Shown here: positions 13,404-59,763 of the stretch, in pieces
Layout of the letters: every line of letters begins with the position of its first letter
Position numbering within the stretch: the stretch's first letter is position 1
Assembly: GCF_003001995.1 (NCBI RefSeq)
Contig: NZ_PVNB01000014.1
Coordinates: 1 to 64,000 of the forward strand
From: Orenia metallireducens
GTDB lineage: Bacteria > Bacillota > Halanaerobiia > Halobacteroidales > Halobacteroidaceae
Direction: 5' to 3'
Length of the DNA stretch: 64,000 bases
Translations under genes and position numbers: made by a program
Notes under the pieces: model-generated
What the model was told of the DNA's origin: nothing
Seen by the model: the letters and a program-made list of their open reading frames with translations, nothing else
Databases searched by the model: none

Positions 13404-13554
13404 TTGATATAGCATAAGAGATTAATTTAATAAAATTATTGAAATTTAATTAATATTTGTTATACTAGTTAAGGTAACAAATATTAAATCTCTAAATTTT
13501 TGATTTAGGGTTTCTATAATACTAGCTGGTTTTTAATTATAACATAGATAGAAG

Positions 13555-13591
13555 AGCAGTTCGAAAAATCCTGCTATAAAAAACTAAGGAG
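13555..13591 (+). promoter_or_regulatory. preQ1-I riboswitch controlling the queuosine-precursor transporter
   Basis: AGCAG (13555-13559), TTCG loop start, then TCCTGCT closing P1, and the A-rich tail ATAAAAAACTAAGGAG. These match the class I preQ1 aptamer: a short hairpin whose loop pairs with the A-rich tail in a pseudoknot. The tail runs directly into the ribosome binding site of the gene at 13602, so ligand binding should hide the site and reduce translation. The gene product belongs to the queuosine-precursor transporter family, which agrees. Confidence 0.92.
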
Positions 13592-13601
13592 TGGTTATAA
13601 T

Positions 13602-52665: not shown

Positions 52666-52709
52666 TATTTTCTATTACTATAATAGGCAATATAATGGAG
52701 GACCAGTTA

Positions 52710-53648
52710 ATGGAGATACCTGAGTATTTTAAAGACAAGATAGTACAGTATTTTGGTAGTAAGGGAGAAGAGTGGCTAAAAGAGTTGCCTGATATTCTAG
52801 ATAGATGTAGAGAAAAATGGAGCTTAACAGATATAGTTGTGGCAGAGGATTTATCTTTTAACTTTGTCTGCTTTGCTCAAGCAGCTAGATATGGCGAAGT
52901 GGTTCTTAAGGTTGCTATCTCTTCTGCTGAGTTATATACAGAGATGAAAGCATTATCGCTGTATAATGGTCATAATATCTGTAAACATTATGATTTTGAT
53001 AGTAAGCTTGCTGCTATGCTATTAGAAAGAGTAGTTCCAGGGAAGAATCTGACCAGTCTAGAGGATAATAAAGAACAGCTGATGGTTGCTGCTGATTTAA
53101 TTTCTAACTTCCCTATAGGTATTGATAATAATGAGCTATTTCCGACTTATCAAGACTGGTTAGGAAGAGCATTTGATAGGGCTAGAAAGGAGAAGATAGT
53201 AGGAGCTAAGCTGCTTTCTTTGATGGATATAGCTGAGGAAATTTTTGATGATATCAATCAACAAAGTGCTTCTCAAGTACTTTTACATGGTGACTTGCAT
53301 CATTGGAATATACTCCAAGATAGAGAGGGAGATTGGAAGGCAATTGATCCCAAAGGGGTGATGGGGGTAGCTTGCATGGAATCAGCAAGGTTTATAGATA
53401 ATCATCTAAATGTTGTTAGTGCTAGGGAAGATATTGATAGTCTAAATCTCTGTAACTATTTAGATGAAATGGTTTCGGTTTTTGCTAGTAAATTTGACAA
53501 ATCCAAGATTATTATTGCAAATTGCCTATTTGTCTTGTGTGTGCTGAGTACATGCTGGAGGTTTGAAGAGGCCAATCCTAAAGAAGACCAATTGAAAGAA
53601 TCTATAGATAAATGCGAATTTATTCTTAAATATATTAAAAATTTATAA
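52710..53648 (+). CDS. APH(6)/Hur-type aminoglycoside phosphotransferase-like kinase
   Basis: 312 aa from the ATG behind ATGGAGGACCAGTTA (an upstream in-frame ATG overlaps the ribosome site). Kinase signatures: LLHGDLHHWNIL (catalytic loop Asp, Asn) and WKAIDPKGVMG (metal-binding Asp), as in the streptomycin 6-kinase/hydroxyurea family. It may phosphorylate an aminoglycoside or an ordinary metabolite; resistance is not proven by sequence. It lies directly after a repeat element. Confidence 0.82.
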   Translation: MEIPEYFKDKIVQYFGSKGEEWLKELPDILDRCREKWSLTDIVVAEDLSFNFVCFAQAARYGEVVLKVAISSAELYTEMKALSLYNGHNICKHYDFDSKLAAMLLERVVPGKNLTSLEDNKEQLMVAADLISNFPIGIDNNELFPTYQDWLGRAFDRARKEKIVGAKLLSLMDIAEEIFDDINQQSASQVLLHGDLHHWNILQDREGDWKAIDPKGVMGVACMESARFIDNHLNVVSAREDIDSLNLCNYLDEMVSVFASKFDKSKIIIANCLFVLCVLSTCWRFEEANPKEDQLKESIDKCEFILKYIKNL

Positions 53649-53732
53649 TTTTACTGGCTAAGATGATATATTTAAAAGATGTTTAGTAGATGATACTTAG
53701 AGTATTTTTATAAAAATAACAAGGAGGTAATT

Positions 53733-54494
53733 ATGGCTCAAGAAAATTTCTATACGGAAGTATATCCTGATATTATTGAGCAATGGAGGTTTTATTTAGA
53801 CTTATTAGAGCTAGAAGAAGGGGATAAGGTTTTAGATATAGGATGTAATCGAGGTGATACAGAACTCTTTATGGTAAATAGCAATCCACAGATAGCTAAA
53901 GTAGTTGGGATTGACATAGATGAACTAAAGTTGAGTGATGCTAGCAAGAAAGTATCAACAGAGCTTGAGCGGGAAAAGATAGAGTTTCAAAAAATGGATG
54001 CTTGTAATTTAGAGTTCGAGGATGAGAGTTTCGATAAGGTGATCTGTGCAGAAACAATCGAATGGATTGAAGAACCTCAAAGAGTTATTCAAGAGGTTAA
54101 GCGAGTATTAAAACCCCAGGGGATAGCAATAATCCAGCATAGTGATTTTGATACACAGGTCTTTAGTACAACTAAGTTAAGTTTAACTAGAGAGATTATC
54201 AACAAATTTACAGACAGTGGTCCTGATGGAACTATAGGAAGAAAATTATTAGGTTGGTGTAAAAGGGTTGCTTTTAAAGAGATAAAACCTGTGATTTATT
54301 CAGTAATTAATGATAGCTTTAAAAAGAATTATTACTCTTATCAAGTTGCTCAGATGATGAAGGAATGGCTTACATCTCAGCAATTGATTGAAGAAGAAAG
54401 ACTAAATGAATGGTTAGAGTATTTACAGAGAATAGATGAAAAAGGAGAGTTCTTTTATTCTATAAATAGAAATCTTGTAATTTGTAGAAAGTAG
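53733..54494 (+). CDS. class I SAM-dependent methyltransferase
   Basis: 253 aa. Motif I KVLDIGCNRGDTELFM, GIDIDELKLSDA for the adenosine-binding Asp, FDKVICAETIEWIEEPQRVI and VLKPQGIAIIQHSDF. Resembles UbiE/Coq5-like small-molecule methyltransferases. Substrate unknown. CAAGGAGGTAATT site. Confidence 0.9.
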   Translation: MAQENFYTEVYPDIIEQWRFYLDLLELEEGDKVLDIGCNRGDTELFMVNSNPQIAKVVGIDIDELKLSDASKKVSTELEREKIEFQKMDACNLEFEDESFDKVICAETIEWIEEPQRVIQEVKRVLKPQGIAIIQHSDFDTQVFSTTKLSLTREIINKFTDSGPDGTIGRKLLGWCKRVAFKEIKPVIYSVINDSFKKNYYSYQVAQMMKEWLTSQQLIEEERLNEWLEYLQRIDEKGEFFYSINRNLVICRK

Positions 54495-54559
54495 TAGATA
54501 GATTTAGTTCTATAGAAGTTAGAATTATAGAGGTTTAAGAAAGGTAGGAGGAGAGCTGA

Positions 54560-55075
54560 TTGGAATTATTAAAAGAGATTCCTGAAAAGAATCAGAATAA
54601 AGATATGACTTATGAATTAAGAAAGGCAGCAAGGGCTGTTCTGTTGAATGATGCAAAGGAGATGGCTTTATTATATGTTAGTAAAGGTAACTATCATAAG
54701 TTGCCAGGTGGAGGTATAGAAGAAGGGGAGGATATTTATTCTGCTTTAAAAAGAGAGGTCAAAGAAGAGGTAGGTGCAGAGATAGAGGTACTAGATGAGA
54801 TTGGCTTGATCATAGAGTATAGGGATGGCTTTGGCAAATATCCTACAGGACAAATCCAACTATCTTACTGTTTTTATGCCAAAGTGGTAGGGAAAGTGGG
54901 GGAGACCTCTTTTAGTGAAAATGAACTGGCTAATGACTTTGAATTAAAATGGGTGCCCTTTAATCAGGGGTTAGAATTACTGAAAAATGATTCTTCAGAA
55001 GATCCTCTAGGTCAATTTATCCATAAAAGAGATTTAGCTTTTATTGAGAAGGCTAAGGAGATAATCGATTCTTAA
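54560..55075 (+). CDS. Nudix hydrolase
   Basis: 171 aa from TTG behind TAGGAGGAGAGCTGA. The Nudix box GGGIEEGEDIYSALKREVKE plus EVG fits the GX5EX7REUXEEXGU pattern. It should hydrolyse a nucleoside diphosphate linked to another group. It follows the methyltransferase gene after 65 bases. Confidence 0.92.
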   Translation: MELLKEIPEKNQNKDMTYELRKAARAVLLNDAKEMALLYVSKGNYHKLPGGGIEEGEDIYSALKREVKEEVGAEIEVLDEIGLIIEYRDGFGKYPTGQIQLSYCFYAKVVGKVGETSFSENELANDFELKWVPFNQGLELLKNDSSEDPLGQFIHKRDLAFIEKAKEIIDS

Positions 55076-59141: not shown

Positions 59142-59588
59142 CTACTTATAAGTAGAGACTTTCCCCCAATATTCAGTCCGGCTGAAAGCAGGGTAGCTAG
59201 AGATAAAATTTACATAAATAGGTGACTTATTTAAGTTGGGATGGGCTTTAAAAAAATCGCGATCACCATAGACTATAGCTTCTAAAGCAAGGGGTAACTC
59301 TTGAATGAAGATTCTATTTCTGATAAATGCTTTGACTAAGCCAAACTCACCATCAACTAAGACACTTGCATACAGATAATAGCCATGTTCATCTACTCTC
59401 CATTCTGCCAATACCTCATCTCGATTTGGATTAATCTGATTATAGGCATATTTTTGAGCAATAGTCAAAAATAGTTCAGCAGTGATATCAGAATGGGTTA
59501 GAGTATATCTTCTAGGTGTAATAGGATCAGTGGGAGTAACTCCAGAACCAAACTCGACAGATAGCTTATCAGGGTCTAACCTTTTCAT
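59142..59588 (-). CDS. stay-green (SGR) family protein
   Basis: 148 aa. The whole length matches the stay-green core: LSVEFGSGVTPTDPITPRRY, TLTHSDITAELFLTI, RDEVLAEWR, LPLALEAIVYGDRDFF and RTEYWGK. In plants SGR removes Mg from chlorophyll a; bacterial homologues exist, and at least one has been reported to have Mg-dechelatase activity. No chlorophyll genes are seen here, so the natural substrate is open. Own AAAGGAGGAG site. Confidence 0.88.
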   Translation of the reverse strand: MKRLDPDKLSVEFGSGVTPTDPITPRRYTLTHSDITAELFLTIAQKYAYNQINPNRDEVLAEWRVDEHGYYLYASVLVDGEFGLVKAFIRNRIFIQELPLALEAIVYGDRDFFKAHPNLNKSPIYVNFISSYPAFSRTEYWGKVSTYK

Positions 59589-59706
59589 ACTCTTCTCCTC
59601 CTTTGTTGAAACTAGATTAATATATCATATGGGATTATAGAGGGTTTGGTACGTGGTAATTTTTAATTGAGCTTTATAGCTGTTGAGGGAAGAGTAAATT
59701 TTTTTC

Positions 59707-59735
59707 TTGACATACTTGTATATACAAGTTATAAT
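59707..59735 (+). promoter_or_regulatory. consensus promoter of the trehalose operon
   Basis: TTGACA (59707-59712), exactly 17 bases, then TATAAT (59730-59735). The spacer is occupied by the palindromic TreR-type operator. Confidence 0.9.
59714..59729. promoter_or_regulatory. TreR-type operator 1
   Basis: Perfect 16-base palindrome ACTTGTATATACAAGT containing TTGTATATACAA, the sequence recognised by Bacillus-type TreR. It lies between the -35 and -10 elements. Confidence 0.87.
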
Positions 59736-59751
59736 ATTCTTAGAAAGAAAG

Positions 59752-59763
59752 TTGTATATACAA
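59752..59763. promoter_or_regulatory. TreR-type operator 2
   Basis: Second copy TTGTATATACAA with flanking G and GT, 36 bases centre to centre from operator 1. Confidence 0.85.

Follow-up and report, generated by a model that had tools for sequence, protein, structure and literature searches.

The 64-kb stretch of DNA analysed here (the window) encodes a genuine and intact bacterial member of the Stay-Green (SGR) family, in which the plant proteins remove magnesium from chlorophyll. Beyond this, we infer that the product is a soluble metal dechelatase which would act on a cyclic tetrapyrrole, the substrate being an external Mg-tetrapyrrole or else a metallated tetrapyrrole from one of the cell's pathways; we place this reading of its catalysis, metal, substrate and cellular role at a probability of about 0.6. 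Bacteria that lack chlorophyll are known to carry Stay-Green proteins, and the gene is a further member of an already known family rather than the first of its kind in non-photosynthetic Bacillota; it is another example tied to the known question of what job these proteins perform. An earlier note on this DNA had called bacterial SGR proteins little studied. Homologs were in fact described in 2009 (PMC2716323), assayed in 2019 (Obata et al. 2019, cited in PMC8531759 and PMC8621299) and, in one case, crystallized (PMC11006732), and the statement holds only in part; the physiological relevance of bacterial homologs is stated to be unknown in PMC8531759. As Obata et al. 2019 is reported in PMC8621299 and PMC8531759, the activity of homologs from chlorophyll-free bacteria is very variable, and gene transfer from bacteria to a photosynthetic eukaryote has been proposed.

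The coordinates and 148-residue length given in the earlier note were exact; it gave no strand. The gene is a minus-strand one, and reading the same span on the plus strand gives a frame riddled with stops (Table 1). Residues 4-147 of the protein aligned with positions 2-147 of the 147-position Pfam Staygreen profile PF12638, a full-length match at 188.9 bits (cut-off 27 bits; E 5.6e-56). The sequence also matched PDB 7y5y_A, a crystallized bacterial Mg-dechelatase, at E 9.7e-32 with ~45% identity, and no NCBIfam model matched it. An AlphaFold2 model built from 44 related sequences (mean pLDDT 90.4) superposed on 7y5y in a Foldseek search of the PDB (E 1.0e-18, TM 0.93/0.91, rmsd 1.9), and this was the only structure to match below E 0.001. 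The poor structural match to SGR that the earlier note had named among the grounds for abandoning its reading was not seen, and profile, sequence and fold bear out its family assignment; the match is not due to chance. The plant STAY-GREEN fold is the same as that of 7Y5Y (PMC13330579). No hydrophobic segment is visible by eye at the N-terminus, and the protein is probably soluble and cytoplasmic.

Table 1. Coordinates in the window of the Stay-Green gene and associated features.
Feature	Position	Strand	Basis
Stay-Green (SGR) family protein, 148 aa	59142-59588	-	PF12638, 7y5y match, AlphaFold model, residue conservation
Ribosome-binding site AAAGGAGGAG	59595-59604	-	Read from sequence; few bases 5' of ATG; strong
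Junction of five missing 7Y5Y loop residues (GWYTRF region), codons 55-56, approximate	59421-59426	-	Alignments

7Y5Y is the structure of AbSGR-h, the Mg-dechelatase of Anaerolineae bacterium SM23_63, which has been crystallized and tested on substrates (PMC11006732). AbSGR-h is a homo-oligomer, hexameric in solution (PMC8531759). Its proposed active site consists of H32, D34 and D62, with Mg coordinated by D34 (PMC11006732); the D34N and D62N variants lose Mg-dechelatase activity while keeping their solubility, H32A weakens activity, and R26, Y28, T29 and D114 are structural residues (PMC8531759). All 12 residues mutated in AbSGR-h (R26, Y28, T29, T31, H32, D34, T36, R61, D62, E63, R95 and D114, AbSGR-h numbering) are present in the window protein, including the four structural residues and the active-site H32, D34 and D62, which correspond to H32, D34 and D57. 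The conserved SGR core reported in the earlier note is real. When the window protein was aligned with 87 Bacillota relatives, the 12 residues were invariant across the 88 sequences except for one T36S and one R61K, and the equivalents of H32, D34 and D62 were identical in 88/88. By analogy with AbSGR-h, D34 would coordinate the metal at the centre of a cyclic tetrapyrrole, and H32 and D57 would help to hold D34 deprotonated; the conserved residues and the fold suggest that the metal would then depart and two protons would take its place. Some removal of Mg from chlorophyll-type molecules in vitro would be expected of this protein.

The two proteins differ in one loop. 7y5y has five extra residues between I52 and M60 (ISGWYTRFM) that are missing from the window protein. 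At W55, R58 and F59 of this loop, listed in the predicted cavity of AbSGR-h (PMC8531759), the alignment shows gaps both in the window protein and in nearly all, if not all, of its 87 Bacillota relatives; the 79 genome-collection members of this alignment were those most similar to a short-loop query and are biased for loop length. The predicted AbSGR-h pocket is therefore incomplete here. This lowers the claim of chlorophyll activity rather than that of family membership, since the pocket is a prediction for one enzyme (PMC8531759) and not an established requirement for activity. The structural model is least certain at this loop (pLDDT 71, residues 51-60). Plant Stay-Green proteins probably have a GWY-type loop like that of 7y5y. 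The short-loop Bacillota proteins might form a functionally distinct branch whose native substrate would come from their own siroheme, heme or B12 metabolism, as a metallated tetrapyrrole other than chlorophyll, and the plant enzyme would thus derive from an ancestral metal-recycling dechelatase; we regard this extension as speculative and distinctly unlikely. The missing GWYTRF loop is nevertheless a concrete structural feature to probe.

The earlier note had remarked that no chlorophyll or tetrapyrrole pathway gene was nearby. This held for the 64-kb window, in which a scan of nearly all ORFs longer than ~150 aa found no tetrapyrrole enzyme gene, but not for the genome: a search of the kind the note had suggested located pathway genes on another contig (C8). 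These encode HemA glutamyl-tRNA reductase, HemL glutamate-1-semialdehyde aminomutase, HemB porphobilinogen synthase, HemC hydroxymethylbilane synthase, a uroporphyrinogen-III synthase fused to a C-methyltransferase (HemD-SUMT), precorrin-2 dehydrogenase (siroheme), the NirJ1/NirJ2 radical SAM proteins and many B12 proteins. The B12 cluster on this contig (L021:4132-7278) contains two cobyric acid synthase genes in tandem. No CobN/BchH-type Mg-chelatase was found in the source genome, which supports its description as non-photosynthetic, or in eight other Stay-Green carriers. The organism thus has genes for tetrapyrroles and not for chlorophyll by the known route. Without a Mg-chelatase, the cell could obtain a Mg-tetrapyrrole only from outside; otherwise the native substrate would be another metallated tetrapyrrole, from its siroheme, heme or B12 pathway. 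Such a substrate, which the earlier note had suggested, gains more plausibility from the presence of these genes than that note could know. Co-occurrence of HemA with Stay-Green was considered and set aside: HemA was found in 6/7 carriers and 24/52 non-carriers (Fisher p 0.10), a comparison confounded by kinship. In one carrier, G312 (a 91% complete draft), no HemA was detected, so that carriers may not all rely on a tetrapyrrole pathway of their own.

A narrower form of our reading is that the protein breaks down chlorophyll and chlorophyll derivatives that reach the environment from phototrophs, or renders them harmless. The lack of a Mg-chelatase in the source genome and the eight other carriers is in keeping with this, as it leaves the classical substrate available from outside only. 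We consider it rather unlikely, given that a protein lacking a hydrophobic N-terminal segment is probably cytoplasmic and that no gene for chlorophyll uptake or downstream degradation lies beside the Stay-Green gene.

The Stay-Green gene stands alone, and its context does not decide the substrate. Across 85 loci compared (a few of them from one genome twice), the most widespread neighbour family was near the gene in just 7 loci, from two Bacillales genera. No neighbour was conserved beyond close kin, and gene neighbourhood was therefore rejected as a guide to what the protein does. In five Clostridium loci, all from a single clade, the Stay-Green gene adjoins a gene for TspO, a membrane protein that binds porphyrins. 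This link was dropped: within the class, one of seven carriers (the source genome) has a TspO match, and that copy is frameshifted. The TspO/MBR gene in question (L108; C23:55439-55784) is split over frames with stops, and is either a pseudogene or a sequencing error.

Further features were seen in the window. Positions 59707-59763 hold a perfect sigma-70 consensus promoter (TTGACA, 17, TATAAT), which precedes genes for a PTS EIIBC protein and a member of the alpha-amylase family. The palindrome TTGTATATACAA occurs once in the spacer of this promoter and once downstream, an arrangement resembling an operator that would control a sugar operon, possibly one for trehalose. Genes for an aminoglycoside phosphotransferase-like kinase, a methyltransferase and a NUDIX protein (52695-55075) are missing in the same-genus species G347, whose corresponding region is collinear apart from this, and a PreQ1 riboswitch (13550-13593) lies directly upstream of a putative vitamin uptake transporter gene of the Vut_1 family.

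The Stay-Green gene is present in single copy in the source genome and is under purifying selection. G347 has an 85% identical orthologue with the same flanks (a PTS EIIBC gene and a gene for a hypothetical secreted protein), and comparison of the two gave dN 0.080 and dS 0.65 (dN/dS ~0.12). A 62% identical copy in another same-genus species, G346, occupies a different genomic place and is not grouped with the window sequence in the gene tree, in which, however, few forks are resolved. No ATG, GTG or TTG lies close to where this G346 gene (L013:8474-8920) should begin; a CTG codon preceded by an AGGAGG site suggests a CTG start.

Stay-Green matches above the family cut-off were present in 4/299 genomes sampled across the phylum and in 7/59 of the class. 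In G344 a match too weak to pass the cut-off (E 8.7e-4) was considered as a degraded copy; because a tblastn search of that genome with the window protein yields no hit, it is treated as chance. GTDB genome contigs contained 481 Stay-Green relatives, and the best 79 of these 481 loci were almost all from Bacillota (Clostridium, Halobacillus, Thalassobacillus, Jeotgalibacillus, Sedimentibacter, Herbinix and others). Families are intermingled in the gene tree, though most of its forks are unresolved. Patchy distribution and a mixed tree are what a recently captured, non-functional passenger gene might show. However, the intact frame, the ribosome-binding site, the low dN/dS and the position shared with the G347 orthologue all speak against this reading, which we hold to be very improbable and which purifying selection already contradicts.

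Five plasmids carry a Stay-Green match, and in four of them the annotation reads 'staygreen family protein'. Two plasmid members, from Priestia megaterium and Clostridioides difficile, pass the Pfam cut-off without the THSD motif and the second aspartate, and the family name alone thus does not imply dechelatase activity. Phage records gave no Stay-Green match, and neither did a viral-contig scan with the single window protein as query. The sole copy in the viral-contig scans is on the predicted viral contig IMGVR_UViG_3300033406_000373 (L112:5001-5453); its THSD/RDE active site is intact, and the gene, oppositely oriented, sits in a cargo-like position with terminase/portal genes on one side and a ParB-methyltransferase gene on the other.

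The divergent plasmid members also bear on whether the native job is related to tetrapyrroles at all. The protein might instead bind or demetallate some other small metal complex, or have a binding or structural role, with any chlorophyll activity being promiscuous. Retention of the domain in Priestia and Clostridioides without its motif fits such a role, as do the wide spread of activity among family members of chlorophyll-free bacteria (as reported in PMC8621299), the patchy distribution and lack of conserved context (seen here and in PMC2716323) and the carrier without detected HemA. Against this, every known catalytic dechelatase residue is kept in the window protein and its 87 relatives, which is hard to explain if the chemistry is unused. 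We regard a job outside tetrapyrrole metabolism as possible, if doubtful. The variable activity of homologs, the absent pocket loop and the lack of a tetrapyrrole-linked neighbour do count against the preferred reading of the protein as a tetrapyrrole dechelatase.

For the question of what the plant chlorophyll-breakdown enzyme evolved from, a well-conserved copy in a bacterium that has a tetrapyrrole pathway but lacks Mg-chelatase offers a reasonable test. Plant STAY-GREEN (SGR/NYE1) has the PF12638 domain in common with the window protein; by description it is 230-300 aa long, mostly with a chloroplast-targeting region, and has a role in chlorophyll breakdown, whereas the window protein has 148 aa. 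Compared with the Priestia and Clostridioides plasmid proteins, the window protein keeps the THSD motif and the second aspartate, and is not of the divergent kind. Stay-Green-like genes described in 2009 in 11/44 Clostridium and 3/41 Bacillus genomes, without conserved context and probably spread horizontally (PMC2716323), resemble the window gene in family, in standing alone and in their patchy occurrence in Bacillota, but the window gene belongs to a bacterium of a different lineage, probably Halanaerobiales-like and probably anaerobic. The closest comparison is with AbSGR-h, which the window protein resembles in fold (TM 0.93), in sequence (~45% identity) and in all twelve mutagenised residues, and from which it differs by the five GWYTRF-loop residues bearing predicted pocket residues W55, R58 and F59.
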